A DNA stretch of 64,000 nucleotides from Nostoc sp. FACHB-280 (GTDB lineage Bacteria > Cyanobacteriota > Cyanobacteriia > Cyanobacteriales > Nostocaceae). The position numbers and the translations under genes are program-made. The stretch covers positions 1 to 64,000 of the forward strand of contig NZ_JACJSD010000038.1 in NCBI RefSeq assembly GCF_014697615.1. The letters run 5' to 3'. Below the pieces are notes generated by a model. That model saw only the letters and a program-made list of their open reading frames with translations, searched no databases and was not told the DNA's origin. Below, in pieces: positions 15,634 to 33,258 of the stretch (the first letter of the stretch is position 1; each line of letters begins with the position of its first letter).

Positions 15634-16305
15634 TTAAAACAATGACAATTGCTCCATCTTAGTATTACTCTCAGTTGAAGTTGCTGTAACAGGGTGCTTG
15701 TTGTTATTTGAAGACTTCTTACCCCATCCCTCTTTCGCTGCGTGTTTGACTACACGAGAACGAATATCAGTAGCCAGGGTTTGATAATCAGAGCGAATTT
15801 TGTTATACGAAACCGGAGTTGTACCAATCTTCTCCCAGAGGTTTTCGTAGTTGAAATTCTTGAAAGGCCTGTGTCTGACAAGGGCATCATAACTTGCCCA
15901 GAGGTAAACATCTGTCCATTCGGATGATAGCGGCACTTCAAAAGCAATTGGCATCATCAGTGCAACAACTTCGCTGCTACAGGCAAGTTTACCTACTTCT
16001 CCCTTGTCTATCTCTTGTAAAGCTGCATCTAATCTATCAACTGCGATCGCGCGCCAAACCCAAGTGGGAATTGACTGTTGCCAGCCGTTCTGCTGAGTGA
16101 CAATCGGCCCGGCGATGTACTGAACAATTTCACGATTTGCGCCTGCTAGATCGAGTAGGCTGGCTGTTACAGCTTTGTTAATCCCTTGGCTGGTTAGTAG
16201 TTGAAGTATCTTTCTAGTGCTGGGGTTTAATATTTCGCTGGTTTTTTGGTTTTTACTGTTGCGGATGGTTTCTTCGACATCGAATAAACTGTGCTGCTGG
16301 TTCAT
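15634..16305 (-). CDS. Protein with clamp-binding peptides at both ends
   Basis: This 223-residue protein is of unknown fold, mainly helical (residues ~25-190). Its last residues are EQLSLF, an exact match to the bacterial beta-clamp binding consensus QL(S/D)LF. Near the N-terminus QQHSLF is a second, slightly weaker match. Two motifs would let it bridge both pockets of a clamp dimer or hold two clamps. It lies just downstream of holB in the replisome block. It is not a recognised Pol III subunit; a plasmid replication accessory factor is the best guess. Confidence 0.65.
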   Translation of the reverse strand: MNQQHSLFDVEETIRNSKNQKTSEILNPSTRKILQLLTSQGINKAVTASLLDLAGANREIVQYIAGPIVTQQNGWQQSIPTWVWRAIAVDRLDAALQEIDKGEVGKLACSSEVVALMMPIAFEVPLSSEWTDVYLWASYDALVRHRPFKNFNYENLWEKIGTTPVSYNKIRSDYQTLATDIRSRVVKHAAKEGWGKKSSNNNKHPVTATSTESNTKMEQLSLF

Positions 16306-16326
16306 ATTATTTATGTGTAAACTAAT

Positions 16327-16358
16327 ACTGCCAGTTAGAAATACTTCTAGCTGGCAGT
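16327..16358. terminator. 14-bp hairpin downstream of holB
   Basis: ACTGCCAGTTAGAA pairs with TTCTAGCTGGCAGT with a single mismatch around ATAC. CTTTTT follows on the + side, and T-poor sequence follows on the - side. Confidence 0.5.
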
Positions 16359-16383
16359 GCTTTTTGATAATGAGTGTGTTTTG

Positions 16384-17268
16384 CTATGGCAGAAGTAGGC
16401 TATCCCAAACGCTTCTGGGCGTAACGTGATGCAGCAATTGCTGTCTTGCATGGGTGAATTTAGCTAGTAGCTTAGTGCTTTTTAATTTCTGCCACCAGTT
16501 GTATTGCAGGTAGGTAAGCAACCATAACTGCGTCTGGTGATTCCAGCTTGAGATGGAGTTACTCAAACTGAGTGCCTTGAGGATATCGTCAGGAGGCACT
16601 TCCAGTTCCTTTGTGATTTCTTGAGAGATGGAAGCTAACATTTTAATATTGGCGATCGCTTGACCAGGACTGCCAGAACTGATAGCTAGTATTTTTTCTG
16701 TTACCTCAATTTGTTGGTCTTTAAGGACAGAAATAACCTCCTCATCAGTTAACCTTTGGAAAGGTATGATTTGACACCTACTCTTGATAGTGGGTAATAG
16801 CTTTTGAGGATAGGATGATATCAGAATAAACGTTCCAGTTTTAGGTTCTTCCAGCGTCTTGAGAAGTTTGTTAGCGGCAGTAGGGTTGAGCATATCTGCT
16901 TCGTGGATAATCACCACCTTTTGCTTGCCCTCGACTGCACTAGTTGAGAGAAATTCAATTACCTCGCGCACCTGTTCTACTCGGATAGCAGGGACACTTT
17001 TCTGCTGGGAGGTGTTTTCGGTATAGGTTGGTTTGATTTGTAAGATGTCTAGATGTTTAGATTCTCCTGCGATCGCGGAGCGGCTTCCTCTTGAGAGTAT
17101 TGCATTTGCGAATGCCAGAGCAGTTTTTCCTTTGCCCACTCCTTCAATTTCGCTGCTAAATAGGTATGCGGGAGCAATTTGATTACGTTCGATTGCTTCA
17201 GTTAGTAGAAGTTTGGCGGTATGCTGTCCGATGATTTCTGTAAATAAATCGTTTTTCATATCGTGCAA
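16384..17268 (-). CDS. holB: DNA polymerase III delta-prime-like clamp-loader subunit
   Basis: This 294-residue AAA+ protein opens like bacterial delta-prime (FTEIIGQHTAKLLLTEAI, PAYLFSSEIEGVGKGKTALA). It has a P-loop GVGKGKT, Walker B region VVIIHEADML (HEAD), LLKTLEEP and the SRC arginine-finger box IKSRCQIIPF. The collar region is short. Delta-prime is the stator of the clamp loader, holding delta and gamma/tau while the beta ring is opened. The gene overlaps the end of holA by 13 bases; ATG 17259 is an alternative start. The retained P-loop is like cyanobacterial delta-prime, whereas E. coli lacks one. Confidence 0.85.
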   Translation of the reverse strand: MHDMKNDLFTEIIGQHTAKLLLTEAIERNQIAPAYLFSSEIEGVGKGKTALAFANAILSRGSRSAIAGESKHLDILQIKPTYTENTSQQKSVPAIRVEQVREVIEFLSTSAVEGKQKVVIIHEADMLNPTAANKLLKTLEEPKTGTFILISSYPQKLLPTIKSRCQIIPFQRLTDEEVISVLKDQQIEVTEKILAISSGSPGQAIANIKMLASISQEITKELEVPPDDILKALSLSNSISSWNHQTQLWLLTYLQYNWWQKLKSTKLLAKFTHARQQLLHHVTPRSVWDSLLLP

Positions 17269-18215
17269 ATTTCAATAATTCGGCTAGTTAAATTGTTAGT
17301 GCCGCTTTTGAGTTCCGTTTCGAGTTGTAAAAGTAAGGTAAGGCTGTTTTTCAGTTTTTGAATGCCTACAAGCTTGATTTCATCTTTGAGGTAATACAAT
17401 CTTTTAGGGTTTTTCAGTTCGGCTATTTCTGCAATCTTTATGTCAGATAATTTAGCTTCTATGCCAGCTTTAGTTATTAGCCAAGTGCGAAAAATTGACG
17501 TAAGAGTTGCTACTATTTTGAGTGGATGTTCATTACTATCTACTAGTTTATCCACCTGCGCTATTGCCAAGTTTGAATGATTTCTTAACATAGCCATAGT
17601 AAGCTTTTGATAGTCAGTATTGTGATTACTAACTAATTGTTTTATTTCCTCAAGAGAAATAATTTTTTCACTTGCATAGACAGCAAGTTTAGCAAATTCG
17701 CTATCGGCTCGTGCAGTGTTATTACCAATTGCTTCAACTAGATAATCGGTCACATCCGGTGTAAGGTTAACTTGATGGATAGCTGCATACTTCCCTATCA
17801 AACTAACTATTCCCTTTTTATCCCAACAAGGAACGAGAGGAAACTCTTCTTGTTGAGCATATTTTAAGATAGTTTTCACTACTGTTCTGCGGGAATCTGG
17901 CTTTTTGTTACTAGTAATTAAAAGAATGTTACTTGCAGGGATTCGAGAAAGTTGATTTTCAAGTCCTTGGTTATTATCCTCATTTGATAAACTTCCAATG
18001 AAATGATCGCTCTCTGTATGAACAATTTTATTACCCTCTCCAAAGGGTAACGTCATAACCTCAGTAAAAACCTTGGCAGCAATATTTTTCTCATTTGCAG
18101 ATAGCTTGATGTAGTTGAAAGCTTTCCATTCAGTATGAACATTTTGATTTACCAAACGGTTTATTTTTTGATTGAGCGAATAGGTATCTTCGCCGTAGTA
18201 TAGGTATACTGGCAT
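17256..18215 (-). CDS. holA: DNA polymerase III delta-like clamp-loader subunit
   Basis: This 319-residue protein matches HolA in its start (MPVYLYYGEDTYSLNQKI), the NILLITSNKKPDSRRTVVK region, LTPDVTDYLVEAIGNN and the C-terminal collar helices. Delta is the wrench that opens the beta clamp. It is translationally coupled to holB (13-base overlap), giving a delta/delta-prime pair. The conserved 20-bp motif at 18245-18264 lies 30 bases upstream of the ATG, so this is probably the first gene of a transcript with holB. Confidence 0.85.
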   Translation of the reverse strand: MPVYLYYGEDTYSLNQKINRLVNQNVHTEWKAFNYIKLSANEKNIAAKVFTEVMTLPFGEGNKIVHTESDHFIGSLSNEDNNQGLENQLSRIPASNILLITSNKKPDSRRTVVKTILKYAQQEEFPLVPCWDKKGIVSLIGKYAAIHQVNLTPDVTDYLVEAIGNNTARADSEFAKLAVYASEKIISLEEIKQLVSNHNTDYQKLTMAMLRNHSNLAIAQVDKLVDSNEHPLKIVATLTSIFRTWLITKAGIEAKLSDIKIAEIAELKNPKRLYYLKDEIKLVGIQKLKNSLTLLLQLETELKSGTNNLTSRIIEICTI

Positions 18216-18244
18216 TGCAGATTAGATAAACATCTAATTATCAT

Positions 18245-18264
18245 GCGTTAGTTATCAGCAGTGG
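18245..18264 (-). promoter_or_regulatory. Recurrent upstream motif, copy 1 (holA)
   Basis: On the + strand the site reads gcgttagttatcagcagtgg, that is GCGTTAGT, 7 bases, AGTGG. The same two half-sites with 6-7 base spacing recur before primase and helicase, always 30-42 bases upstream of a - strand start. Looser versions (GCGTAAG or GCGTATG ... GTGG) lie at 21086-21101 (polymerase), 28406-28422 (nuclease) and 34358-34376. It may be a promoter or a regulator site. Confidence 0.55.
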
Positions 18265-18340
18265 TTAAAAAAAGAAGAGTTAGTATTAACTCTTTCTACT
18301 TGATTGGTATTTGTTATGTAGTGACCAGTAAATACCTTAC

Positions 18341-18517
18341 TTAAGTTTGTGCTGGTTGTACGAAATTTTGAATTGAGTCTTTTTCAATATGGTTATCTAC
18401 TGGTTTATTACCCAAGTATTTGCGCCAAGAATCTAACTGTTGAAGATACTCTATTACTCCACTAGAACCAGCTACCTCGTATAGTGTAATAGCTGTTTCC
18501 CATTCCTTTAAGCTGGC
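18341..18517 (-). other. In-frame continuation of the next gene beyond a TAA
   Basis: The frame of the gene at 18518-19123 continues past its TAA for 58 more codons (SLKEWETAITLYEVAGSSG, LQQLDSWRKYLG) and stops at 18341. The composition is protein-like (helical, W-, Y- and L-containing) in an otherwise empty 300-base gap. It is either the amputated C-terminus of that protein or a read-through extension. Confidence 0.45.
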
Positions 18518-19123
18518 TTATTTCTCTGAGAGAATTTTGACTATAGCTTCGGGAAGTTTAGTGTCTTTACCAGTATCTAAATTTAAGTGTGGTGTGTTTT
18601 CTAGTAATATTTCTTGTCCACATAGAGTAACACCATCATCTTTTATATTTGTAGTATGAAGTTGAACACTAACCTCTGATAAAGGAAGAGTATATTGAAG
18701 AAATTTTTTAACTTTTTTGGTTTTAGTATTTCTCCTTTTTGGTTTAATGATAACTGGGTTGTTTGGTTCTGCAACTTCGTAACATTGAGGGAGTTCTAGA
18801 GAGAGTTGACCTGTTAAGTGCCATGATGCGCTTCGTTTTTCTGGTGGGGTAATGCGATAAGAGAACTCAGCCGTTTTCCTGGGATCGCCAGACTTTCTTA
18901 GTTTAACCCACATGTTGTAGCTGATAATTCCTTGGATGTAAATTTTCGGGTCTAATATTACTGGGGTTGTGTTTTCCCACCACTCAATTTGAACTACGCG
19001 ATCGCCATCTAATTCGTAGATAGTTCTAACTCTGGCATTAGGATGAGACGACAGGAATGAGTTTACCCAAGCCCTTTGCTTTTTATTAAGCCTGGGCTTG
19101 CGAGAAGAGGATTTATTTTTCAT
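18518..19123 (-). CDS. Hypothetical protein in the replisome block, possibly truncated
   Basis: This 201-residue basic protein has an N-terminal K/R-rich tail and a beta-rich middle (RTIYELDGDRVVQIEWWENT, YIQGIISYNMWVKLR). It contains TGQLSLELP, resembling but not matching a clamp-binding peptide. No family was recognised. It lies between the polymerase and holA on the same strand. Its TAA may be a nonsense mutation, because coding-like sequence continues in the same frame. Confidence 0.55.
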   Translation of the reverse strand: MKNKSSSRKPRLNKKQRAWVNSFLSSHPNARVRTIYELDGDRVVQIEWWENTTPVILDPKIYIQGIISYNMWVKLRKSGDPRKTAEFSYRITPPEKRSASWHLTGQLSLELPQCYEVAEPNNPVIIKPKRRNTKTKKVKKFLQYTLPLSEVSVQLHTTNIKDDGVTLCGQEILLENTPHLNLDTGKDTKLPEAIVKILSEK

Positions 19124-19211
19124 TAGTTACAGGCAAATCAGAATGTATGAATTTGAAAAACCTTTATATTTAGTGCCTTCAAAATTTACCTAAAATCTCA
19201 ACTTTCTTCAT

Positions 19212-21029
19212 TTAGAAAAGAGATAACTGACGTTTGTTACTTTCTAGCATTGCAGGAGCAGCTATTTTGAGAATTTCTTCTCGCCTTTTGTCAACAAGGT
19301 GAAGATAGTATTGACGTGAATAATTCTCATTACTGCTGATATTGGTTATGCCGCTAATTCCGTAATAGTAATTTACTACATCTCCAGGTTTACCTAGTTT
19401 GAGAATTTCTTTTTCGCCCTCTTTAATCTTGCGTGTGATTGCAAGTTTTTCTTTTGGATATTCCCTTGATAAAATCTGGGATTTGATGTGTGCATAATAA
19501 TCTTCTGCTACTGATACATTTTGAATTAGCAGGGTTAAATACTCAATAGAAAACTCTTTCTCCAGTTGAGAGCGATCGCGGTTGCGCCAGTTACCTTTAG
19601 TGATGATTTTCCCGTCTGGAAGCCATAAAAGGTAATTTTTGGTTCCCCGTTCGGGGATAAACATAGCGTCAGCGATAAACTCTAGCTTGACAGTTATCCC
19701 TTTAGGCAATTGAGATTGCAGTAAACTACGTACCTCTTCTGGGTTGGGATGGGTGAAAAACACTCCATCGGTGTCAACTTCCACAGGGGTACCACCGTGC
19801 CGAGTGATAATTTCAATCATTAGCTTGAGTACTTTTCGACTGTAGGCTGTAACTAATGCAGCAGCCTCCATATCATTGAAGGCGAGTTCAGAGGTGCCGA
19901 AGAATCCAAACTCGGAGTTAGCTAAAACCTTGACGGATTCTCTTTTTTCCTTAGCAGCAATATCTCCAGCAGATGCAAGTTGTTCCAACCTAAATTTTTC
20001 ATTCACCAAATATTGCAGAATACTTAGCCCAATACGTTCTGTATCTTTAATTGAGCAAATACCCTTGTCTAGCATTGCCCAAGGGTGCATTGAGCTAATA
20101 TCTGCATATCCAACCCTTCTATACAGTCCAGGGATAGAGTAAGCCATCCCTCCTTGGAATTTGTACTTGCGATCGGGTTTTGGTTTATAACCTGGATAAT
20201 GATGCTCAAATATTCGCTCCCATTTAGTACCATTACCAGCAAGTGTTAGCTGCTGGAGATTCATTTCCGGTACAACTAGTGCTTCGTAATAGTATGAGGG
20301 TACAAGTCTATTCGCAATTAGCCGAGTGTCTTCAAGGTCGTAAATAAGATACTCTTTCAGGCGTTTCCATCCCTTACTGTTGGGGCCATCTTTCCAACAA
20401 CTGAGGATTTCCTCATAGGGAAGAACTAGCCTGGTGTTCTGGCGCAGTCCCATTTCCAATACAGCCTTTTTGAGCGATCTGCCGTTAGTTAGCTTTTTGG
20501 CTATGAAATCCCACCTCAGAACGCAGATATAAATGTCTACGTGTTGGCTATTTCGGATGAATACCTCCTGAATTTTTAGTGGCTCGCCCCTTACTTGGGC
20601 GGTACGAATAGTCCGAGATTTGGATGCAACTTTAAATGGGTGTTTTATACCGTGCAAGTTGCATCGAGTAATAATAAATGGAATATCAAATGCCATCCCG
20701 TTATATGTGAAAATGACATCTGGATTTCTTTTACTGAGATGGTTGATAAATTTGGTTAATATTTTAGCTTCTGAGATATCCATGAAAATAGTAGAATATC
20801 CCAATAAATCCATACAACCAATAGCATAAATACGGCTTTCAAATGGGTTGATTCCTGCTGTTTCGATATCAACAAATATTTGTGAAAGTTCCTGATACGG
20901 CTTGAGTTGTATTTTGGGCTGCCAAGGTTTTATTGGAGAGGGGTCTTTCCAATAAATGTTTAGTTTGTCTTCATCGACAAAGATTATCCCTCTAGATTTT
21001 TTCACATAATCTCTGTGGTTATAACTCAT
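19212..21029 (-). CDS. polB: Compact family B DNA polymerase with 3'-5' exonuclease and clamp-binding tail
   Basis: This 605-residue protein carries all family B motifs. Exo I is FVDIETAG (D54, E56), Exo II TYNGMAFDIPF (D115) and Exo III YDLED (Y230, D234). Pol motif A is YADISSMHPW (D310), motif B KVLANSEFGFFG (K367, N371) and motif C VDTDGVFF (D419, D421). So both proofreading and synthesis should work. It is shorter than typical PolB (700-900 residues), and motif C has DTDG instead of DTDS. The last residues RQLSLF form a perfect beta-clamp peptide, implying use of a bacterial clamp, most simply the one encoded at 23259. Cyanobacterial chromosomes use Pol III, so this is a plasmid or phage-type replicase. 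Confidence 0.93.
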   Translation of the reverse strand: MSYNHRDYVKKSRGIIFVDEDKLNIYWKDPSPIKPWQPKIQLKPYQELSQIFVDIETAGINPFESRIYAIGCMDLLGYSTIFMDISEAKILTKFINHLSKRNPDVIFTYNGMAFDIPFIITRCNLHGIKHPFKVASKSRTIRTAQVRGEPLKIQEVFIRNSQHVDIYICVLRWDFIAKKLTNGRSLKKAVLEMGLRQNTRLVLPYEEILSCWKDGPNSKGWKRLKEYLIYDLEDTRLIANRLVPSYYYEALVVPEMNLQQLTLAGNGTKWERIFEHHYPGYKPKPDRKYKFQGGMAYSIPGLYRRVGYADISSMHPWAMLDKGICSIKDTERIGLSILQYLVNEKFRLEQLASAGDIAAKEKRESVKVLANSEFGFFGTSELAFNDMEAAALVTAYSRKVLKLMIEIITRHGGTPVEVDTDGVFFTHPNPEEVRSLLQSQLPKGITVKLEFIADAMFIPERGTKNYLLWLPDGKIITKGNWRNRDRSQLEKEFSIEYLTLLIQNVSVAEDYYAHIKSQILSREYPKEKLAITRKIKEGEKEILKLGKPGDVVNYYYGISGITNISSNENYSRQYYLHLVDKRREEILKIAAPAMLESNKRQLSLF

Positions 21030-21900: not shown

Positions 21901-21906
21901 TTAAAG

Positions 21907-23196
21907 TTAAGCTTGCTGTAGTTGTTTTTGTTGCAGCTTTTGGACAGCTTCTACCCAAGCAGGTGCTTTTTTACCATTAATAGGTGTTAGTTTTTGCCAG
22001 TGTTCTTGTAACTGCGCTTGTGTTAAGTGAGGTAACTGTTCCTTGCCCCAGTTAATCGCATCTTGAGCAGTTTTCCAATCTTTCCAGGGTTGTGATTGGT
22101 GACTACCCTTGTTGGTTGGCACTATCTCGATAAGTGTAGCTTCCAACCAAAGATGTGCGTTTTCATCCCGCATCAGATTTTGGCGTGCCATTAAGATTGC
22201 GATCGCATTTCGGATCTGGTCAATATTCCACAACTGCGAGATACTTACTAATTCCTCCCAGGTGTCCTCTTCTAGCTGTGTAAGATGTCTGCTATTGGGA
22301 TTAGTTTTGCACACAAGTAAGTCTTTGAGGAAGTTGACAAGACTTGTATGGATGGCAGCTGGCTGTTTCCCAGATTCAATCCAATCTTGGAGAATGCCTA
22401 AATTGCCCGTAATTTCTCCTTTGATGATATTTTCACAGACGGTGAGTAGATCGTATTTGGGAATAGTGCCTGATAGTTCCCAAACCCAGTTAGAGGTAAT
22501 TTCCTCTTCACCTAGTAAAGTTAGCTGATCTAACAGTTTGAGTGAGTCGCGCAGATGTCCCTTGTTTGCTTTAGCTACGGCGGTAACTGCTGATGGCGCA
22601 ATTTTGATACTTTCCTGGTGAGATATTTGTTCCAGGTAGCTTGCAACTAGCGAGACAGGAACTCTCTTAAAATCAAACTTTTGGCAACGGGAGACAATGG
22701 TTTCTGGAACTTTGTGTAACTCGGTTGTGCAGAAGATAAATACTACATGACGGGGAGGGCTTTCAATGGTTTTGAGGAGTGCTTGCCACGATTGGCTACT
22801 TAGGGCATGACATTCATCAATAATGAATATTTTGAATCTACTCTCCACTGGTGCAAATTGGGTAGTGGATATAAGCTCTCGGATCAGTTCTACCCCACTA
22901 TTGCTTGCTGCATCCAGTTCGGTTACATCAACAGAAGAAGATGCTGTAATTCCCTTACATGAATTGCATTCTCCACAGGGCTTGGTTGTCGGCTCATTGC
23001 TTGATTGACAGTTGAGGGATTTAGCGATGATGCGGGCGGTACTGGTTTTGCCCGTACCTTTAGGGCCACTAAATAGGTAAGCAGGTGCAATCTTTTGGAG
23101 TGCGATCGCATTTATGAGAGTGCGAACGATATGTTCTTGTCCAATAACTTCACTAAGAGTCTGGGGACGGTATTTGAGATGTAGTGGTTGGTACAT
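21907..23196 (-). CDS. dnaX: DNA polymerase III gamma/tau-like clamp-loader ATPase
   Basis: The start HLKYRPQTLSEVIGQEHIVR, the P-loop FSGPKGTGKTSTAR, the zinc module (CGECNSC after NCQ), Walker B FIIDECHAL, LLKTIESPP and the SRC box VSRCQKFDF identify DnaX. It is the motor subunit that loads the beta ring. At ~430 residues it lacks the long tau tail that binds DnaE and DnaB. Instead it ends in a ~55-residue helical domain (AINWGKEQLPHLTQAQLQEH, GKKAPAWVEAVQKL). ATG 23196 is preferred to TTG 23208, because GGAAAG lies a few bases before that ATG. Confidence 0.9.
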   Translation of the reverse strand: MYQPLHLKYRPQTLSEVIGQEHIVRTLINAIALQKIAPAYLFSGPKGTGKTSTARIIAKSLNCQSSNEPTTKPCGECNSCKGITASSSVDVTELDAASNSGVELIRELISTTQFAPVESRFKIFIIDECHALSSQSWQALLKTIESPPRHVVFIFCTTELHKVPETIVSRCQKFDFKRVPVSLVASYLEQISHQESIKIAPSAVTAVAKANKGHLRDSLKLLDQLTLLGEEEITSNWVWELSGTIPKYDLLTVCENIIKGEITGNLGILQDWIESGKQPAAIHTSLVNFLKDLLVCKTNPNSRHLTQLEEDTWEELVSISQLWNIDQIRNAIAILMARQNLMRDENAHLWLEATLIEIVPTNKGSHQSQPWKDWKTAQDAINWGKEQLPHLTQAQLQEHWQKLTPINGKKAPAWVEAVQKLQQKQLQQA

Positions 23197-23225
23197 AGTT
23201 CTTTCCAATAATTTATTTTAAATTC

Positions 23226-23258: not shown

Positions 23259-24629
23259 TTATACAGAAGCAGCCTCTTTCTTGGCTCGTGTACGCGAACT
23301 TGGCTTACTTTTGTTACTAGCTTTGGCCTCAGCTGTTGATGTCTCTACTTCCGAGGTTTCACCATTGCTTTCCGTTTGAGAAGTCTGAGTATTATTTATG
23401 GCTTCTTCTAGTTCGGCTACTACAGTAGTTTCTGTTGTTTCTAATGCTTCAGGAGTTTTCTCTGCTGTTGTCGTTTTGCTTGGGGTGGATTTATTTTCAA
23501 ACCCCTGCTTAATTTCTACAGGCATTACCAGATACAGCTGATTGAGCAGTCCTCCCATCGGGCAGATAATAACTGGTTGCGTGGGTTTGTTACACCGCAC
23601 CACGATTTCATCAGTACTGATGTGCTTTAATCCTTCGAGAAGGTAATCGATATTTAATCCAATACTGATGTTTTCTGAATGACTAGTTGCTGGTTTCATC
23701 AGTACCGAGTCAACTGCATCCCCGATATCAGTAGCTTCAGTGTATAGTGTTGCCTGTGTAGCTTCCAATTCCCAGAGAATTTTGACAACCTTTTGCTTGC
23801 GTTCGGCTAGATAACTTACCCGCTTCAGTGCGCTCTCAAATCCCTTGCGTTCTAATGTAAATTCATACTCAAATGTTCTGGGAATCAAACTATTGATTTT
23901 GGGGTATTCTCCCTCTAAAAGTCGGGAAATGACCTTTGTATTAGGAAGACTAAACTCAATAGTTTTATTTGATAGAAGAATATTGCACACGCTTGTATCG
24001 GCACTTTGAGAGAGAATTTTGTTTAACTCGCCAAGTGACTTACCTGGAACAGTAAAGTCAATTGGGTCAGAATATTCGCTATCAAGTGTTCCTGTGACTA
24101 ATGCTAATTTGTGACCATTTGTACTAGCAGCTTGCCACTTATTGGTATCAATTTTGAAGTTGACACCAGTTAAAACTAACTTTGTTTCGTCACCATTGGT
24201 GCAATAGAGTGTCCCTTCAAGTGCAGCTTGGAGTTTCTTGGCACTTAAATTTACTTCTATTGGATTTTCTCCCTTGGGAAGAGTTGGAAACTCGTCAGGT
24301 TTTCCACCAATCAGACGGCATTTACCGCTATTGTGAGTAATTATGCAGGCTTGGTTTTCTACCTCTAAGGTAATTTCTCCTCTGACATTGTTAATAGTGT
24401 CAGTTAATAGTTTGGCTGGTAGTGCTACCTGACCTGAAGTTTCTACATTAGCCGTCGTTGTAGTATGAATTGTGAGGTTAAGGTTTGTTCCTGTTGCTGA
24501 TACCATCCCATCTTCATTTGCTATCAGTAAGATATTTCCTAAAATTGGGTCAGTAGGTTTAGGACTAATTGCGAGATAAGCGGTTTCTAGAATTTCTGCG
24601 AGTTTAGATTGTTCAATGTTTAGTTTCAT
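23259..24629 (-). CDS. dnaN: Beta sliding clamp with long C-terminal tail
   Basis: The first ~375 residues are a bacterial DnaN: MKLNIEQSKLAEILETAYLA, NILLIANEDG, the SREYPKI-like SRLLEGEYPKINSLIP region, and YLVMPVEI where standard clamps end. The ring dimer tethers polymerases and other QLSLF-bearing proteins to DNA. Here ~80 residues follow the normal end. They are Thr/Glu-rich and then lysine/arginine-rich (KSKPSSRTRAKKEAASV) and look disordered. Since the hydrophobic binding pocket is built partly from the C-terminus, the tail could modulate access or accept a modification. It neighbours dnaX, DUF-type and polymerase genes. Confidence 0.92.
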   Translation of the reverse strand: MKLNIEQSKLAEILETAYLAISPKPTDPILGNILLIANEDGMVSATGTNLNLTIHTTTTANVETSGQVALPAKLLTDTINNVRGEITLEVENQACIITHNSGKCRLIGGKPDEFPTLPKGENPIEVNLSAKKLQAALEGTLYCTNGDETKLVLTGVNFKIDTNKWQAASTNGHKLALVTGTLDSEYSDPIDFTVPGKSLGELNKILSQSADTSVCNILLSNKTIEFSLPNTKVISRLLEGEYPKINSLIPRTFEYEFTLERKGFESALKRVSYLAERKQKVVKILWELEATQATLYTEATDIGDAVDSVLMKPATSHSENISIGLNIDYLLEGLKHISTDEIVVRCNKPTQPVIICPMGGLLNQLYLVMPVEIKQGFENKSTPSKTTTAEKTPEALETTETTVVAELEEAINNTQTSQTESNGETSEVETSTAEAKASNKSKPSSRTRAKKEAASV

Positions 24630-24709: not shown

Positions 24710-25702
24710 TTAGTAGGGCAGTTCTTCCATCTCAGTACTGTATGCTGTATAAGCTTGACCTGCTGTACTAGGAGGAAGTGCTGCTACTGGCATATCAGCC
24801 GCACCTACCAGGCGATTATGTTCTGCTACAACAGTTGATGTTTTACCGATGCGGTGAGAGAATTCGGGGTTTGCCTGCATTGTTGTTTGGATATCGATTT
24901 CTTTGCCTTCTGAGAAGAATTCGAGAAAATCGCTGCCATCGGGGTTTGGTGATTTATAGGAAGTGACAACTGCTACCCAAGATTTATCTCTTTGATTGAC
25001 TGCTTCTTTAGGTTCAAGAGATGGCGTAAAGGTGGGTTGAAATACACCGAGGCGATGAAACTCTGCACGTTTTTCAGCAACAGTTGTATCAGTAAATCGG
25101 GCGAATGCAACCTCTAGTTCGCGTTGGAACTGTTTATAAGCCTCGCCAAATTTTGATGATGCAACGCCTTTAATTGATAAGACAATTGGTACTGAGTGCA
25201 GGTTATGATTATTTTCATCAACAAGCTGCAATAAGTAGAACCTTCTCAATACTGCGGCATCTTTGCCAAGTGCTTGGTACATTTCGTACCCATCAGGTGA
25301 TTCGTACACTCCTACAATTTTGCCGTCATCGCGCTGTTCAATATATCTGGGAGAAACATCAAGAATGTGCATCCTGGGCGATTGCAACAACACTCCCATT
25401 TCTGGCGTGCCACTAGAGAAGGTGTGCTTGTGTGTAGGTTCTTGTCCTTGCCAGTTAATTGCTGCTAAGTATTTATCTTTGATAAACAACCCGACTTTTT
25501 CTGCTTCCATGTGATTGATTACTTGGCAGATGCAGATATTACTAATCGGCGCATTGTACTCAGGATTTGCAAATTTAGAAATAGCTAATTTACGCTTTTG
25601 TATTTTTGTACTATTTTGAACTGTTTGTTCAGGGGGTTCAGACTGGGATACTGTGCTTTCTTCAGTAGCAGAATTAGTAGGCTTTGTTTGACTTTTTGGC
25701 AT
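24710..25702 (-). CDS. Conserved cyanobacterial plasmid protein with SSB-like acidic end
   Basis: The 330-residue product has a disordered, Ser/Thr/Gln-rich N-terminus (1-~40), a conserved-looking alpha/beta core (~45-250, ISNICICQVINHMEAEKVGLF; VVTSYKSPNPDGSDFLEFFS), and the end STEMEELPY, which resembles the acidic partner-docking tip of SSB. It may belong to a cyanobacterial domain family of unknown function (possibly DUF5895; not verifiable here). It lies directly upstream of dnaN, so a single-strand DNA-binding or loader-associated role is plausible but unproven. A GCGTAAAG variant of the recurrent motif lies about 27 bases upstream. Confidence 0.6.
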   Translation of the reverse strand: MPKSQTKPTNSATEESTVSQSEPPEQTVQNSTKIQKRKLAISKFANPEYNAPISNICICQVINHMEAEKVGLFIKDKYLAAINWQGQEPTHKHTFSSGTPEMGVLLQSPRMHILDVSPRYIEQRDDGKIVGVYESPDGYEMYQALGKDAAVLRRFYLLQLVDENNHNLHSVPIVLSIKGVASSKFGEAYKQFQRELEVAFARFTDTTVAEKRAEFHRLGVFQPTFTPSLEPKEAVNQRDKSWVAVVTSYKSPNPDGSDFLEFFSEGKEIDIQTTMQANPEFSHRIGKTSTVVAEHNRLVGAADMPVAALPPSTAGQAYTAYSTEMEELPY

Positions 25703-26102: not shown

Positions 26103-26104
26103 AT

Positions 26105-27688: not shown

Positions 27689-28368
27689 ATTTCAACTTCA
27701 GGAATTGCTGCTAAATATTCCATAGTTGATATTTCTTTTGCTAGCCATTTATCATGTGCTTCTTGAGGAGTCATTTTTTGGGTTAAAAGTTTTTTCTCTT
27801 TATCGTCTTCTACAAAAGGAGCGAGTGTTTCTTCTAGTCGGGCTTTGAAATTCAAATGTTTATCTTCAGAATAAGTAAACTGGTAAATACTATCAGTATT
27901 AACGAACAAGTAAACCAGGCTAATTTGCTCCAATGGTATTCCAGTTTGTTCGTATAGGAGAAATAACCTCAGTTGAGTTTGCCATTTGCTCTCAATAATT
28001 TCAAATTTCGGAGGTTTTTGAATTGTCCAGTCAAACCCAACTACTTGATTTTCACCGTAGATAATGAGGTCGCACTCGCTGTAGAGAAGAATATCGTGAT
28101 ATAAATATTGAAGTTGGGCGTTCCATTGTTTGTTGCCAGGAATATTTAGAAAAGGTTTTACCTTATCGACCCAGTTATTAATTTGGGGGTATGCCTTCAA
28201 TAAAGCTTCCACTGGTAGCCCTAACCCAATTTGTTGCATAATGAGGTGAAACTGACCGCCAGCAACTTCAGATTCACTTTTGACAGTTAGATTACGATAA
28301 TTTATCGTTGATAAACATTCTGGATTCTGTTCAACTAGTTCAAGTGTTTTGTGATTAAAACGATTCAT
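27685..28368 (-). CDS. PD-(D/E)XK nuclease-like protein
   Basis: The core shows the arrangement of RecB/Cas4-type nucleases: a helix with acidic residues, then CDLIIYGENQVVGFDWTIQK (acidic residue, then D-x-x-x-x-K), and the later QLRLFLLYEQTG helix that matches the QxxxY-type motif. Such enzymes process DNA ends. Strict catalytic spacing could not be confirmed. ATG 28368 is preferred to TTG 28383. A variant of the recurrent upstream motif lies at 28406-28422. Confidence 0.6.
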   Translation of the reverse strand: MNRFNHKTLELVEQNPECLSTINYRNLTVKSESEVAGGQFHLIMQQIGLGLPVEALLKAYPQINNWVDKVKPFLNIPGNKQWNAQLQYLYHDILLYSECDLIIYGENQVVGFDWTIQKPPKFEIIESKWQTQLRLFLLYEQTGIPLEQISLVYLFVNTDSIYQFTYSEDKHLNFKARLEETLAPFVEDDKEKKLLTQKMTPQEAHDKWLAKEISTMEYLAAIPEVEI

Positions 28369-28412
28369 GAAAATATATCCCAAATTTAGTTTTTGGGATA
28401 TATATGCGTAAG

Positions 28413-29270
28413 CTATTTGTGGTAATTTAGCTGCGGATTATAGTATTTTTTAAGTTGGTTGATGCTTGTATATAAACTTCGGGTTGACATTGCTTTGAGG
28501 TCAAAATAACTGGCGAACTTTTTCAACCCCCCAGTGAGGGTTAATTCTAGTAAATACTGGGCTGCGATCGCACTTGTCATTTTATTGACGAATAGTGATT
28601 GATAATTCCGTGCTTGAATTTCTGCACATGAAAGGTTGTTGTCGCTAAGTTCTTCTGGCTGAGGAACTAGCAGTTCTGGGTGAACCAGCACCGGGGAGGG
28701 AAGATGTAACCAAAATTGAGGTTTGTCTGGGTTATTGGAAGCTTGGACTATATCAAAATTAGAGTGCGTTCCAATTACTATTTGTCCAGAGTAGTTGCTG
28801 TTTCCACAATCCAGCCAAAATAGCGATGCTGGCTCATTTGCACTGTTTATTTTGAGAACAGAGTGAATTTTGCTCCTGGCTGTGCTGTTATCTACACAGC
28901 CAATAATTACCGTTAGGGTATTCCACCAACTGGCCGTGCGAATCATGTCTTCTTCAAACCAGTCGCAAACGGCTGTAATTTCTATTCCATACTTGGCACT
29001 GCATCTTGCAGCCAGTGTTTCTGCCTTTGGTAGCCCAATTTCAGCTTGTTGATAATTTTGGCGGCTGATATTTTTGAGTTCGACAGTATCACCATCAACG
29101 ATCGCAAAGTTAATTTCTTTCCTAGTGCGCTGGAGTTGCAGAAGAATTCGACATAAATCTTCTGCAAGAAACCCGCCTGTTCCTCCTACTCCTACTAAGA
29201 CGAAGTTGATACGAGTATGATTGCGAGGTAAGACGGGTAAAGCTTGTTGGTAAGTAGTTAATTCAAGCAT
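28413..29270 (-). CDS. E1-like ThiF-family adenylyltransferase (PRTRC ThiF)
   Basis: This 285-residue protein has the Rossmann start VLVGVGGTGGFLAEDLCRIL, the nucleotide-binding DGDTVELKNISRQNYQ element, the GLPKAETLAAR region and the IIGCVDNSTAR stretch typical of ThiF/E1 enzymes, which adenylate a C-terminal carboxylate on a ubiquitin-like protein. The late segment (LSCAEIQARNYQSLFVN) matches the plasmid-associated PRTRC ThiF type. It overlaps the JAMM gene by 13 bases. With the E2-like and JAMM genes it completes an activation, transfer and cleavage set. Confidence 0.85.
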   Translation of the reverse strand: MLELTTYQQALPVLPRNHTRINFVLVGVGGTGGFLAEDLCRILLQLQRTRKEINFAIVDGDTVELKNISRQNYQQAEIGLPKAETLAARCSAKYGIEITAVCDWFEEDMIRTASWWNTLTVIIGCVDNSTARSKIHSVLKINSANEPASLFWLDCGNSNYSGQIVIGTHSNFDIVQASNNPDKPQFWLHLPSPVLVHPELLVPQPEELSDNNLSCAEIQARNYQSLFVNKMTSAIAAQYLLELTLTGGLKKFASYFDLKAMSTRSLYTSINQLKKYYNPQLNYHK

Positions 29271-29854
29271 TTTACCTGTGGCGGCAGTTCAAATATTTGA
29301 TTGGGGCTAATGTCGAAAAAGTGATTGTATATCCCGATACGAGTATAAATTGTGGGAATGGTATTCAGCGTGCCAATAATCGCGAACACTCGAAATTTGC
29401 CTTTTTCTTCTTGATTGTCTGCACTTGAAGGATAAGCAGCTAGAGTTCCATGACTGTGCATTTCCACCAAGCTTTCTGTATAGCTTTTATCAAGTGCGCT
29501 TTCTAAAGATAAGACATGAGTAGAGGACGCGGTTTGCAGTGGTGTGTGACACCACCATTGGTTATTTGTCACTCCCAAGTAGAATAGGATTTCCTGTTGG
29601 GGGTTGATACTAGCAGCATTGATAATCTCAGCGATCGCTTGACTGGGGACTTTTGGGACTTTCAGACGAAAGTAGGGTTCAAGGGGTTGGAGTCCAGCCA
29701 CTTGAGTTTGAGTTAGTTGCAAGCAAACCTCTAACTCGCGGCGGTGCGATCGCAAGAAAAGCCCATTTGCTGCCAGCCAGTATTCCTGGAGTTTTTGACT
29801 GTAGGGAGGAAAGTTATTACTTGTAGCAAGGTGATAACCGATAAAAGGATTCAT
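29258..29854 (-). CDS. JAMM/MPN metallopeptidase (PRTRC protein A-like)
   Basis: The C-terminal half carries a complete JAMM zinc site: EMHSHGTLAAYPSSADN, with H133-x-H135, seven residues, S143, two residues, D146. An acidic residue sits in the strand before it. JAMM enzymes remove ubiquitin-like proteins or process their C-termini. The N-terminal ~75 residues are a separate beta domain (YWLAANGLFLRSHRRELEVCLQL). It is coupled to the E1-like gene and follows the E2-like gene by two bases, as in PRTRC cassettes. Confidence 0.85.
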   Translation of the reverse strand: MNPFIGYHLATSNNFPPYSQKLQEYWLAANGLFLRSHRRELEVCLQLTQTQVAGLQPLEPYFRLKVPKVPSQAIAEIINAASINPQQEILFYLGVTNNQWWCHTPLQTASSTHVLSLESALDKSYTESLVEMHSHGTLAAYPSSADNQEEKGKFRVFAIIGTLNTIPTIYTRIGIYNHFFDISPNQIFELPPQVKCLN

Positions 29855-29856
29855 GG

Positions 29857-30579
29857 TTAACTAAACAAATGATTGATAATGTCTTCTGGGGTTGTGACTT
29901 TCCAGCTATGAACGGGAACAAGGTCACTTGAAGGGTAGGATTTAGCTTTAGATTCGTGCAATTTGATTAGCTGATTGCAGATATTATCGGGATGAGTTTT
30001 TGACTTGCCTTGAGACAAATCCTTGTTAAAAGGTGATTTCCAGAACAGATCCCAGACTTGGCTTATGATTGCAGCACTGCACATACTGAGAGAATTTCCC
30101 CCAAAGCAAATACTAGAGTCGTCCCAAACGTTAGGTAGAGGAGGCTTGTACAGTTGTGCGTCTGGTTTAAATACCCTCCCTTTAACTGCCCACAGGTAAT
30201 ATCTACTACCGCATCCAGCAAATAAGAATGCAGGCATTGGTACAGTAATTACTTCAGGTTCCTGTCCTATAATTTGAATTTGATATTTTTGGGGAGAGTA
30301 AAACTGAATAATGGCCTCTCCCTCTGGATTTTTACCCCACCAAATCGTGTTGCTAGAAAGCCATCCAGATGCGGCAGTTTTACTTGTGAAGGCTTTCTCT
30401 ACTGCTTCAGGAGACAAGAATTTGTATTTAGACTCTTTGCCTTCGCGTTCGACTAGAATAAACTGTCCTTTGAGGATAATTAACTGCCCTAGTAAATCAT
30501 CTTGGGGAATATTGGCAAGCAGGATTTGGGAGACATTTTCTAAGTTAATTATCGGTAATATATTTGTATCTACATTCAT
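29857..30579 (-). CDS. Prokaryotic E2-like protein (PRTRC protein B-like)
   Basis: About 240 residues. The central part (VPMPAFLFAGCGSRYYLWAV, then PPLPNVWDDSSICFGGNS) matches the plasmid E2 family D, in which the segment P-x-x-N-V-W-D-D-x-x-I-C-F/L-G carries the candidate thioester Cys. It would take the ubiquitin-like protein from the E1-like enzyme. ATG 30579 forms an ATGA overlap with the upstream gene's stop and is preferred to TTG 30600. Confidence 0.8.
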   Translation of the reverse strand: MNVDTNILPIINLENVSQILLANIPQDDLLGQLIILKGQFILVEREGKESKYKFLSPEAVEKAFTSKTAASGWLSSNTIWWGKNPEGEAIIQFYSPQKYQIQIIGQEPEVITVPMPAFLFAGCGSRYYLWAVKGRVFKPDAQLYKPPLPNVWDDSSICFGGNSLSMCSAAIISQVWDLFWKSPFNKDLSQGKSKTHPDNICNQLIKLHESKAKSYPSSDLVPVHSWKVTTPEDIINHLFS

Positions 30580-31304
30580 GCTTTTGATGCTTGGTTCCAA
30601 ATTTTTACTGCTGCTTTTCGAGCAGAAAGAGATGTTTCTAACAAATGGCTAACCTCATTTGATTTCTCTATCATCGAGACGGCTTCTTGCCACTTTTGAG
30701 CGAGAAATACGATATTCTCATAAGTCCATTCCAGCCAATCGCTTGTTTCACACGTAATATCTAGCCAAATATTTTCAGTTGAGTAATCTATAATTCGTAT
30801 GGCTATATCTAAATATTGCAGGGGACTTTTGTAACGACGACACAACTTTACAAATTTCTCAAAATAAATTCCTTCTGCTGGAGCAATGTAGTCAGGAGTA
30901 AAACCAAAATTTATTTTCCATTGGCTGATATTGTACCCTTGCCCCATCAATGAAAGTAGGAACTTCTCCGAGTATACCAGTTCCTCAAAATCTTCATTCC
31001 ACCATTCAAGTCTTTGTGGTGAAACTAGAATACTATCACGTTCGGAATTAAACTCGATTTCATCTATATATTCTATTGGGAATAAATTTTCATTCACTAG
31101 GTTAATAAATTCAATTTCTCTATCTAGGTAAGCACTTGATGGATGTGATTGTTTATTAATAGGTATGGTTGATTCTAACCATTTTTCTGGAAATAATCTT
31201 TGATACAGACTCAAGATATTAACTCGTTCGGAAAGATTTTCTAGATAATTAACTGCTGTTATACAAGTAATGGGTATTTTGAATGAGTAGATATTGCCAA
31301 GCAT
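30576..31304 (-). CDS. Unknown protein in the PRTRC protein-F position
   Basis: The 242-residue product is alpha/beta, rich in aromatic and acidic residues (SPQRLEWWNEDFEEL, WLDITCETSDWLEWTYENI), with a helical end. No family was recognised. It lies between the C-like and B-like genes, where classical PRTRC operons carry protein F, and it is coupled to the E2-like gene by ATGA. Position alone suggests that it is the local F equivalent. Confidence 0.55.
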   Translation of the reverse strand: MLGNIYSFKIPITCITAVNYLENLSERVNILSLYQRLFPEKWLESTIPINKQSHPSSAYLDREIEFINLVNENLFPIEYIDEIEFNSERDSILVSPQRLEWWNEDFEELVYSEKFLLSLMGQGYNISQWKINFGFTPDYIAPAEGIYFEKFVKLCRRYKSPLQYLDIAIRIIDYSTENIWLDITCETSDWLEWTYENIVFLAQKWQEAVSMIEKSNEVSHLLETSLSARKAAVKIWNQASKA

Positions 31305-31312
31305 AATGAATC

Positions 31313-31335
31313 AGCCGCTACGAGTTATAGCGGCT
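31313..31335. other. 8-bp hairpin inside the PRTRC operon
   Basis: AGCCGCTA pairs perfectly with TAGCGGCT around cgagtta, between the C-like gene and the next. No T tract follows, so it may tune expression inside the operon. Confidence 0.4.
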
Positions 31336-31347
31336 ATAGATTTGTGA

Positions 31348-31770
31348 TTACAGTACAGGATATTTACTCCTAATAGCGGGTTGCTGTTTAAGGTTTTGAG
31401 CAACTTTTTCGCTATAGGTTTCCCAAGATTGACCGAGCTTGATAGCTTTATCTATCTCAGGTTGTAAGGTAATTAAATTTTCGAGACTAATTTGACTGTT
31501 TATCTCTAGAAGCTTTATCTGCCATCCTAACTTTAGTGCAGGATTTATTTCTTCAAAACAGTTGTTCAATTCTCTAAATAGACTTCCTTTAGTACCAGCT
31601 TTTTTCACCAAACGAATTGAAACTGTATCATCAGTTGTTTGTCGTTCAATTTCGGCATTAGCATACTCTGGAAAGTAGACGCTAATCGCTGTTTTGAGGG
31701 TATTGTCATCCTGGGCGATCGCCTCATCAAGAGGAATTTCTTGTCCTTCGATAATAGCAATGTACTTCAT
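31348..31770 (-). CDS. PRTRC protein C-like, ubiquitin-like-associated factor
   Basis: The first ~75 residues (IEGQEIPLDEA, AISVYFPEYANAEIERQ, then VSIRLVKKAGTKG) follow the PRTRC protein C pattern, including the aromatic-proline helix and the AGTKG signature. That family has been proposed to be linked to a ubiquitin-like fold. Here ~65 additional helical residues extend the C-terminus. Ending ...RSKYPVL, it lacks a diglycine, so whether it is the conjugated modifier is unclear. It starts five bases after the E-like gene. Confidence 0.65.
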   Translation of the reverse strand: MKYIAIIEGQEIPLDEAIAQDDNTLKTAISVYFPEYANAEIERQTTDDTVSIRLVKKAGTKGSLFRELNNCFEEINPALKLGWQIKLLEINSQISLENLITLQPEIDKAIKLGQSWETYSEKVAQNLKQQPAIRSKYPVL

Positions 31771-31774
31771 GGTA

Positions 31775-32257
31775 TTAAAATAGTGACAGTTGGTTGTTAG
31801 GTGTAGGTTTTTTATCTTTATCTTCAGGTAGGTTACGCTTTTGTACTTGTTTTGATTGTTCCTGTCGATTCTGCTCTGTAGTCTGCTTTTCCATCCTTTG
31901 TTTGCAGATATTTAGCATTTCCGGGAGAGATTTTTCTAAATCATTTAGCCAGTTATTTATGATAGGCTGAGATTTAATCTCAGCTAGAGGAATTATCTTT
32001 ATGATTGGAGGTGCATCTTGAATTCCAACTGAGACAATTGCTTTTTCAGAATTTGGTGTTAACTGAATTGTTATTATGGCGGTTTTGGTAAAAGTTATCC
32101 CGCTAGATGAATCTTGACTTATAACTTCAGTATTTACTGATTCATCTAATGTTTCTTCTGAATTTAGATCGTCCTGAATATCAGGATTGAAATCTTTACT
32201 GCTATAGTTATCTTCAAAGCCAGTTACATTCTCGTCAGGTGATGTTTGATTACTCAT
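31775..32257 (-). CDS. PRTRC protein E-like factor with clamp-binding tail
   Basis: About 55 disordered acidic residues precede a compact beta-helix domain (KTAIITIQLTPNSEKAIVSV, NNWLNDLEKSLPEML), followed by a charged linker ending PNNQLSLF. That final peptide is an exact match to the clamp-binding consensus also present on the polymerase. Its gene position, first after the primase and before the C-like gene, and its beta core suggest PRTRC protein E. If so, the ubiquitin-like module would be physically tied to the sliding clamp. Confidence 0.6.
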   Translation of the reverse strand: MSNQTSPDENVTGFEDNYSSKDFNPDIQDDLNSEETLDESVNTEVISQDSSSGITFTKTAIITIQLTPNSEKAIVSVGIQDAPPIIKIIPLAEIKSQPIINNWLNDLEKSLPEMLNICKQRMEKQTTEQNRQEQSKQVQKRNLPEDKDKKPTPNNQLSLF

Positions 32258-32259
32258 GA

Positions 32260-33258
32260 TTAAGAGAGATTGGCTAATCTAAATAAGGTGCGGATAGTGA
32301 TACCTGTCTTGTTAAAAGACTGCCATTTGTAGGCGCATTCGCCTGGTTTGTACTTAGGAGAAAGTTGGCTCCAGGTGTCCCATGCTTTAAATAAAATGGG
32401 ACTAACACTCTTGAGTGCCATCCCGACTTGAATCCACGAATGGTAGTCATCTGCAAACCGAGGGTGGATGACTTCGAGTAGTACAAGTGCGGTTTGAATA
32501 TTGGTTTCTATTGACGGAATTAAATGAGCGTACCTGTCTACCCCATATCTGCGGTTATATTTTTCTTTGGGTAGGTTAAACTTTCTTGTTTTCTCCTGTT
32601 TGGCAAGCATTTGGGCAATTACCCAATCGGGAGCTATTTCTATTTGGCGTTCAGATGGACTACAGCCGGGAAGCCATCTGTAATTTCTACCTTCTGGGTG
32701 AAAGGATGGGGGAAGAATTGAAGCTAGGTTTTTGCCTCGAAACTCCAGGTGTTCGTCCTTCCCAGTTTTGATTTTGCGAGATTTGACATCGCAAGCTTTT
32801 GAATTTGGGATGAGGTATAAGCGTTGGCTGCGATATTTCCTCCCAGAGGTAAATGCAATTGTGGGAGGGAGATATTTTTGAGCGCGATTGTGTAACGATT
32901 CCGTAGGAGTATCGCGTGTTTCGGCGGGTGTTAGCTGGTTGAGTTCTTCTGGTTCAGAATGTTCGTTAATTTGGATGATGTGTCGCCAGGATGTTTCCCC
33001 ATCGCAGTCAATAGCTACTAAGTACCCTTGAGGATGATTAAAACCGCATACCAAAGCTACACCAGTGGGTGTGATAAATCTGTTATTTGTCCAAACTTTT
33101 AGCCGACGGCGGATGAGTTCAGTTTGTAGTTCTTTGGGAGAGTAAGTGTTTTTTTCCCATTCTTTCCCTAAAGGACGTTTACCAAAGGTAGGAACGATTC
33201 GCCATTCTTCGGGTAGGTTGTCAAGCGAAGATACCAAATGACGGATTTGGGCGTGCAT
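32260..33258 (-). CDS. Prim-pol type DNA primase
   Basis: The 332-residue protein has an archaeo-eukaryotic primase-like N-terminal domain: WRIVPTFGKRPLGKEW, a catalytic acidic pair in YLVAIDCDGETSW, and FRGKNLASILPPSFHPEGRNY with its conserved His. A PriCT_2-type C-terminus follows (YHSWIQVGMALKSVSP, YKWQSFNKTGITIRTLFRLA). Such enzymes make primers and often extend them on plasmids and phages. With the polymerase, clamp, loader and SSBs it makes a near-complete replisome. It opens the operon that runs into the PRTRC genes. No clear ribosome site is seen; the start codon lies in an inverted repeat. Confidence 0.85.
   Translation of the reverse strand: MHAQIRHLVSSLDNLPEEWRIVPTFGKRPLGKEWEKNTYSPKELQTELIRRRLKVWTNNRFITPTGVALVCGFNHPQGYLVAIDCDGETSWRHIIQINEHSEPEELNQLTPAETRDTPTESLHNRAQKYLPPTIAFTSGRKYRSQRLYLIPNSKACDVKSRKIKTGKDEHLEFRGKNLASILPPSFHPEGRNYRWLPGCSPSERQIEIAPDWVIAQMLAKQEKTRKFNLPKEKYNRRYGVDRYAHLIPSIETNIQTALVLLEVIHPRFADDYHSWIQVGMALKSVSPILFKAWDTWSQLSPKYKPGECAYKWQSFNKTGITIRTLFRLANLS

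Follow-up and report, generated by a model that had tools for sequence, protein, structure and literature searches.

Pol II of Escherichia coli, a chromosomal family B polymerase induced by DNA damage, carries a clamp peptide at its C terminus and works with the beta clamp and the gamma complex; large plasmids are generally taken to borrow the replicase of their host. This work concerns a block of replication genes at 15634-33258 (minus strand) of a 64,000-nucleotide window of the cyanobacterium Nostoc sp. FACHB-280, the window being bases 1-64000 of contig C46 (72,556 bases) in a genome of 7.64 Mb and 113 contigs. A first-pass annotation, made from the letters alone, had described here a family B DNA polymerase (PolB) with a bacterial clamp and clamp loader, and had proposed a plasmid that replicates with its own polymerase. 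The core of that observation was confirmed: the block holds intact genes for HolB, HolA, a 605-aa PolB, DnaX, DnaN, a DUF5895 protein and a prim-pol primase. As in Pol II, a bacterial family B polymerase with a C-terminal clamp peptide is combined with a DnaN ring and a DnaX/HolA/HolB-type loader; unlike Pol II, which shares the clamp and loader of its host, the polymerase, clamp and loader lie here in one conserved plasmid block.

Mobile elements with a family B polymerase, a clamp and a loader of their own have a precedent in the replisomes of T4-like and jumbo phages, but in the passages of PMC7824862 that treat them the clamp is of the PCNA family and the loader of the RFC family, whereas those described here are of the bacterial DnaN/DnaX/HolA/HolB type. 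The polymerase itself is not a new type and, from its sequence, resembles the G3 group described by Kazlauskas et al. 2020, since its nearest phage matches, from Nostoc, Anabaena and Dolichospermum phages (37-40%) and Salinibacter phages (25-28%), are of kinds assigned to that group; the sections of the paper on group membership place Nostoc and Salinibacter phages in G3 (PMC7544198). A glutamate two residues before the first aspartate of motif C, which by our own reading of those sections corresponds to the conserved glutamate of G3, is present in 51 of 58 PolBs, the window's included, and is missing from Gloeothece and from both phage PolBs compared (Nostoc phage N1 and Dolichospermum phage Dfl-JY23). 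Unlike the set studied here, group G3 is presented in its section of the paper with no mention of a clamp peptide or of a dnaN/dnaX/holA/holB block (PMC7544198). Membership of PolB_SITDG, described in the same source for cyanobacteria and algae, in which the first motif C aspartate is replaced by a hydrophobic residue, was ruled out, D419 being kept in 58/58 sequences. Searches of open-licence papers listed no description of a plasmid-encoded set of clamp, loader and PolB. Given the Pol II precedent and the resemblance to G3, the novelty is the plasmid-borne set and not a clamp-bound PolB as such.

Gene content of the replication block

Genes were identified by Pfam and NCBIfam profile matches to the block proteins, and these agree with the identities and coordinates given at first pass for HolB, HolA, PolB, DnaX, DnaN and the prim-pol primase. 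All lie on the minus strand. The loader consists of HolB (delta prime; 16384-17268; PF13177, 7.2e-36), HolA (delta; 17256-18215; PF06144, 5.6e-30; TIGR01128, 2.7e-51) and a short form of DnaX with a 436-aa open frame (21907-23208; PF13177, 1.4e-41, with lid and domain III). DnaN (23259-24629; TIGR00663, 2.4e-76) is a three-domain beta clamp, with all three Pfam domains recognised and a TIGR00663 score of 257.1 bits against a cut-off of 137.65. The primase (32260-33258) joins a prim-pol domain (PF09250, 7.6e-24) to PriCT_2 (PF08707, 1.3e-23).

PolB (19212-21029) comprises an exonuclease part (PF03104, 5e-12) and a polymerase part. The PF00136 polymerase profile gave 20.5 bits in the window PolB, below its cut-off of 23, and no match in a whole-genome search; a profile built from ten PolB relatives matched archaeal family B structures (1.7e-37) across both the exonuclease and polymerase domains. 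Fourteen positions (D54, E56, N110, D115, Y227, D231, D310, K367, N371, G375, D419, D421, K464 and Y466) are invariant in the 58 PolBs of at least 550 aa. With the exonuclease and polymerase roles that we take these positions to have, the residues of Exo I-III, motifs A-C and KxY would all be present, in keeping with the intact motifs reported at first pass. Residue 315, in the motif A sequence SSMHP, is a histidine in 17/58 PolBs (the window's included) and a tyrosine in 41/58; the motif A tyrosine of other family B polymerases excludes ribonucleotides.

Co-occurrence and gene order on plasmids

Contig C46 holds 72.6 kb of a presumably larger plasmid. Its closest plasmid relatives in PLSDB, found by tblastn, are nine records of 215-301 kb with a PolB identity of ~97%, and both of those opened with topology shown are circular. 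In all, PolB was found in 27 PLSDB plasmid records, 18 of them cyanobacterial (40-97%) and 9 from Deinococcus (about 24-27%). The expectation that the parts would share one replicon in other cyanobacteria was borne out, DnaN being encoded on all 18 of the listed cyanobacterial PolB plasmids; the Deinococcus deserti record gave no DnaN match, and its PolB is not surrounded by a clamp-loader block. All ten opened plasmid records with an unbroken PolB share the order dnaN-dnaX-PolB-holA-holB (one each from Brasilonema, Anabaena cylindrica, Gloeothece and Sphaerospermopsis, and two each from Chroococcidiopsis, Calothrix and Nostoc), while on contigs from Argonema and Phormidium (loci L063 and L067) dnaN lies downstream of holB instead. 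The element is uncommon, since in an even survey of cyanobacteria a PolB match was obtained in 12 of 386 genomes (that of the window included), 5 of them full-length. The block was also seen on two chromosome-sized records (loci L037 and L065), which suggests integration or assembly joining; in Calothrix brevissima NIES-22 the PolB frame is open, and in Calothrix sp. PCC 7716 it is broken into two pieces.

Clamp-type peptides

PolB ends in RQLSLF, the exact clamp peptide noted at first pass; the tail is a predicted clamp-binding peptide of QL[SD]LF type, placed at a free end and conserved in homologs. Scored as QL[ST][LI][FL] at the PolB C terminus, it was sought in 67 PolB loci, comprising the window's own, those of 12 plasmid records and of 2 phages, 49 of 53 GTDB-genome loci (three duplicates were dropped, and L082, a 3.8-kb fragment, has no PolB open frame) and 3 of 4 viral contigs (one duplicate was dropped). 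The tail occurred together with at least one of dnaN, dnaX, holA and holB in the fetched piece at 54/67 loci, among which L016, L065, L071, L075 and L078 have PolB in pieces and were scored on the last piece. Clamp or loader genes were never found without it (0/67). Neither was present at 9/67 loci (L079 and L081 of these are cut by the contig end), and at the remaining 4/67 (L057, L072, L076 and L086) the tail was present but the fetched piece contained neither clamp nor loader genes. A Fisher test of tail against clamp/loader genes (P = 1.7e-8) ignores kinship and was not relied on. Unlike the window's enzyme, the two phage PolBs compared (N1 and Dfl-JY23, 37-39% identical to it) lack the tail, and their records gave no DnaN match; the Gloeothece PolB, at 41% identity to the window's, has it. 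Among the 18 cyanobacterial PolB plasmids in PLSDB, the tail was read directly in 13.

Two further block proteins carry peptides of this kind. The unnamed 223-aa product of 15634-16305 (minus strand), which has no Pfam family and a structure model too weak to use, bears QHSLF at its N-terminal end and MEQLSLF at its C terminus. Of 37 homologous open frames, 33 have the C-terminal peptide and the remaining four are fragments, truncated or changed in their last residues; QQSLF or QHSLF lies near the N terminus of most homologs. The 160-aa protein encoded next to the primase (31775-32257, minus strand) ends in NNQLSLF, and its C-terminal tail was found in 8/8 homologous open frames. As a background, the fetched loci contain 1514 other six-frame open frames of at least 100 aa, not every one a real gene, and 3 of these have QL[STDG][LI][FL] at the end. 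All three sit on plasmids of the PolB class or of the family A polymerase class described below: two are orthologous Calothrix proteins of ~1730 aa encoded near HolB on PolB plasmids, and the third, from an Oscillatoria plasmid that encodes a DnaN itself, is a methyltransferase. The Calothrix proteins (L004, 24733-29934; L009, 24474-29669) are encoded downstream of HolB and end in QLSLFDL and QLSLFEL; the L004 copy, the only one scanned, has methyltransferase and helicase domains.

Elsewhere in the loader, a clamp-like peptide, QLELL or QLDLL, occurs within the first eight residues of HolB on Chroococcidiopsis, Anabaena cylindrica and Sphaerospermopsis plasmids (L002, L003, L007 and L008). Clamp-like matches inside DnaX (found in 30/56 open frames; QLTLL and QLSLL are examples) were read as ordinary domain sequence and left uncounted. 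In the sections of PMC4549789 on the motif, QLSLF is the full consensus beta-binding motif, an engineered stronger variant, and a transposase engineered to carry it showed ~4-6-fold more transposition.

Ancestry of the clamp and loader, and selection

Copies outside the block were found in the same genome: a second DnaN on C21, DnaX on C73, HolB on C28 and HolA on C26. The plasmid clamp is 38.8% identical to the C21 clamp over 366 aligned positions, which rules out a recent duplication of the host clamp. The 'host-style clamp logic' proposed at first pass needs correcting, the clamp being the plasmid's own and not the host's. In a quick tree of 81 clamps, 45 from PolB plasmids fell on one side of a branch (support 89), apart from 3 from family A plasmids and 33 treated as chromosomal (the C21 clamp together with the top-scoring copies from other genomes). 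The segments that we take, from the E. coli clamp, to form the cleft are retained in the alignment of the plasmid clamp. The window DnaN has a low-complexity C-terminal extension of ~80 aa. Such an extension is carried by the aligned PolB-class plasmid clamps and not by the genome's other clamp; in the three clamps of the family A class the extension is at the N terminus instead. In E. coli the DnaX tail binds Pol III and DnaB; the plasmid DnaX frame, at 436 aa against 669 aa for the C73 copy, fits, on this comparison of lengths, a loader with no tether to Pol III.

Divergence runs in parallel across the five proteins of the dnaN-dnaX-PolB-holA-holB set (r 0.75-0.95 among 15 representatives, with 0 of 2000 permutations as high), which shows joint inheritance, as expected if the genes travel together. 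Against up to seven relatives, dN/dS was 0.09-0.18 for PolB and 0.02-0.46, where computable, for 12 other genes; prim-pol and 31775-32257 were outside this set of 13. The block genes tested are under purifying selection and are thus maintained. That the block consists of relics or passengers of a chromosomal region, as had been considered for the loader genes at first pass, is highly improbable: fragments do occur in some genomes, and the survey gave the 12 matches (5 full-length) mentioned above, yet dN/dS lies well below 1 in the 13 genes, contradicting a relic origin for the window's lineage, the gene order is conserved across 40-97% PolB identity, and the clamp is only 39% identical to the host's.

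Proposed role and alternative explanations

With moderate confidence, we regard the block as a plasmid-dedicated, clamp-tethered DNA synthesis machine, for which we infer clamp binding, loading, processivity and plasmid replication as the task. The plasmid's DnaX/HolA/HolB loader would place the plasmid's DnaN ring at primers made by its prim-pol or by host primase; PolB, tethered to the ring by its C-terminal QLSLF, would extend them processively, and plasmid SSB would coat the plasmid DNA during synthesis. The products of 15634-16305, with a peptide at each end, and 31775-32257 would dock on the same ring and could couple partners or hand them over. The initiator and fork helicase would come from elsewhere, the candidates being host DnaB or the plasmid's DEAD helicase (see below). 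PolB would then be the plasmid's main replicase, as proposed at first pass; of the first-pass interpretation, the co-occurrence of the parts, the exact peptide and genes that are not relics were supported, and the clamp, at 39% identity to the host's, is the plasmid's own. In favour of the machine as a whole, with polymerases that may be exchangeable, count the DnaN on all 18 listed cyanobacterial PolB plasmids, the shared gene order, the pairing of the tail with clamp or loader genes, the parallel divergence, the low dN/dS, the retained cleft segments, the published standing of QLSLF as a beta-binding motif and the similar linker peptide of an unrelated family A polymerase described below. 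A plasmid family combining clamp and loader with an interchangeable family B or A polymerase would show that a bacterial clamp can act as a docking platform for unrelated replicases. Such plasmids would provide a natural test of whether distinct clamp systems in the same cell remain separate, and of the forces that favour replacing a polymerase, and they offer parts for separate replication in biotechnology hosts.

Several observations weigh against this reading. ISAva7 interrupts PolB both on plasmid C of Trichormus variabilis and in strain 0441, so that on plasmid C PolB would be dispensable or would work as two pieces. In the clamp tree, the divergent clamps of L005, L063 and L067 fall nearest to the remaining clamps, and the PolB-plasmid group has a support of only 89 in what was a quick search in which long branches meet. 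The tail is a clustered trait, with 2 changes on the PolB tree, too few independent pairs for a test. Moreover, the QLSLF tail would probably also fit a host clamp, since it occurs where a plasmid clamp was not in evidence: on viral contig L086, which gave no DnaN match, in Leptolyngbya L072, from a genome with a single DnaN match, and at L057 and L076, whose fetched pieces hold neither clamp nor loader genes. A search of the genome's contigs found no match to DnaE or DnaB on C46; the genome's copies lie on C84 and C67, respectively, in agreement with the first-pass statement that both are absent from the window. Finally, no initiator was found for the plasmid in the 72.6 kb present on C46, and the single CyRepX-type query used, for which there was no positive control, had no hit in the genome, which makes this a weak negative.

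Some details attach to these cases. In locus L016 (20025-22730), ISAva7 lies between the exonuclease and polymerase parts of the Trichormus variabilis plasmid C PolB; the clamp and loader genes of that plasmid are still annotated. L086, a 65-kb IMG/VR contig, encodes a divergent PolB (28%) that ends in QLSLFV; as this contig gave no DnaN match, the enzyme may rely on the clamp of a host. As regards initiators, at least 5 of the 18 PolB plasmids match, among the matches listed, the pSYSX protein, which from its place and size we assume to be Slr6031/CyRepX1, or its Brasilonema relative. CyRepX was nevertheless set aside as the initiator of the window's plasmid on the weak negative from the one query against its own genome, and the product of 13715-14890, which has no family match, was judged an unlikely initiator from its acidic look. 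The PolB plasmids resemble the CyRepA/CyRepX plasmids in being large cyanobacterial plasmids, and the window's differs from the CyRepX plasmids in the weak negative given above; the term 'DNA polymerase' is absent from the main text of the paper describing them (PMC10899382).

Part of this evidence would also suit a repair or bypass module, in which host Pol III copies the plasmid and the plasmid's PolB, clamp and loader fill gaps or bypass lesions. E. coli provides the precedent of a clamp-bound family B polymerase with a C-terminal peptide, the PolB of Trichormus plasmid C is interrupted by an insertion sequence, and neither a helicase nor an initiator of the plasmid's own was recognised. 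A repair module could, however, use the clamp and loader of the host, yet here purifying selection maintains four additional genes whose divergence parallels that of PolB, and a prim-pol and an SSB are encoded nearby; we consider it unlikely.

Less probable still is a transfer module that synthesises the complementary strand after single-strand conjugative entry, before host factors act. Plasmid typing classed 15 of the 27 PolB plasmids as conjugative, TraD- and TrbI-like genes are present on the same contig as ParA and ParB, and an SSB, a primase and a polymerase occur together. The remaining 4 mobilizable and 8 non-mobilizable plasmids speak against it, and so do the Calothrix plasmids with the same block, which are typed only as mobilizable, and that of Brasilonema, typed as non-mobilizable.

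A sister plasmid class with a family A polymerase

Plasmids of Planktothrix, Oscillatoria and Nostoc UHCC 0926, absent from the 27 PolB records, combine dnaN-dnaX-holA with a family A polymerase that has a 3'-5' exonuclease (PF00476 and PF01612 in Planktothrix). Among the best 40 of 146 records matching this polymerase, 23 are cyanobacterial, and at least 13 of these 23 also match DnaN among the matches listed. In 24 of 34 aligned family A sequences, some of them near-copies, the linker between exonuclease and polymerase contains Q[LMIV]xL[FL] or something close to it, most often QLSLFPE, QLSLLPE or QMSLLPE, and QLPLF in Allocoleopsis; a limit on length or score removed L143 and L156 from the alignment. 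On L023 and L027, one gene upstream of the family A polymerase, there is a homolog of the 15634-16305 protein that ends in QISLF. Anabaena cylindrica PCC 7122 and Aulosira laxa NIES-50 each harbour two such plasmids, one per class, and every one of these encodes a separate DnaN.

We tentatively propose a family of cyanobacterial plasmids with autonomous elongation machines made of bacterial clamp and loader components, in which the polymerase slot may have been filled at least twice (family B and family A), a similar clamp peptide being fitted independently each time, and in which further plasmid proteins may be organised by the plasmid ring. The linker peptide is missing from 10/34 family A rows, Stanieria-type sequences among them, and this counts on the other side. 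Should the proposal hold, PCC 7122 and NIES-50 would contain three clamp-based replisomes (host Pol III, plasmid PolB and plasmid PolA), and a two-ended clamp adaptor and the primase neighbour would be organised by the plasmid ring.

Neighbouring genes and other features

Beyond the parts listed at first pass, the block contains a cassette resembling that of PRTRC plasmids, the two additional tailed proteins and the DUF5895 protein with an SSB-like tail. The cassette lies between the primase and the clamp (minus strand) and encodes a ThiF-type E1 (PRTRC_ThiF-like; 28413-29270; TIGR03736, 132.5 bits, cut-off 144.75), a JAB/MPN peptidase (PRTRC_A-like; 29258-29854; PF14464, 6.4e-12; TIGR03735, 45.8 bits, cut-off 101.8), whose residues HSH...S..D are present and are presumably the JAB motif, and an E2 family D protein (PRTRC_B-like; 29857-30600; PF14460, 8.6e-46; TIGR03737, 63.7 bits, cut-off 131.45). 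As in the PRTRC cassette (TIGR03735-03737), ThiF, E2-like and JAB genes are adjacent on a plasmid; unlike it, the cassette sits inside a replication block, and since all three proteins score below the curated NCBIfam cut-offs, membership of the PRTRC system was rejected. Blocks of Nostoc, Brasilonema, Anabaena and Sphaerospermopsis carry the same cassette, and those of Chroococcidiopsis a part of it; it does not seem to be needed for the polymerase set, since in Calothrix (L004 and L009) and Gloeothece (L005) it was not detected within the fetched loci. Two unnamed proteins are encoded beside it, inside the block (30576-31304 and 31348-31770), and an unnamed conserved protein without a Pfam family lies between PolB and HolA (18518-19123, minus strand), with 43 homologous open frames in the fetched loci.

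The DUF5895 protein (24710-25702, minus strand; PF19247, 3e-30) ends in EELPY, and it is this ELPY/PPY tail that links it to SSB; an SSB fold was not accepted, its structure model being of middling confidence and giving no PDB match at E 0.001 or better. Of the two SSB-type proteins reported nearby at first pass, that of 13096-13479 (minus strand) is an SSB by its PF00436 match (5.7e-22), while that of 12603-13022 (minus strand) has no Pfam match and is SSB-like in its DEEPPF tail, a comparison made with the tails of its homologs. A DEAD/DEAH helicase with an MZB domain (34427-37147, minus strand; PF00270, PF00271 and PF09369), with 15 matching open frames in the fetched loci, is our guess at a candidate helicase of the element.

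Further along the minus strand, ParB (9109-10095; PF02195) and ParA (11671-12465; PF13614) flank a gene with RRXRR and HNH domains (10180-11463; PF14239+HNH) that we take to be IscB-like, and a gene at 43402-44922 is presumably TnpB-like. The plasmid contig also carries, at 4438-5397, a gene for an orange carotenoid protein with both domains.

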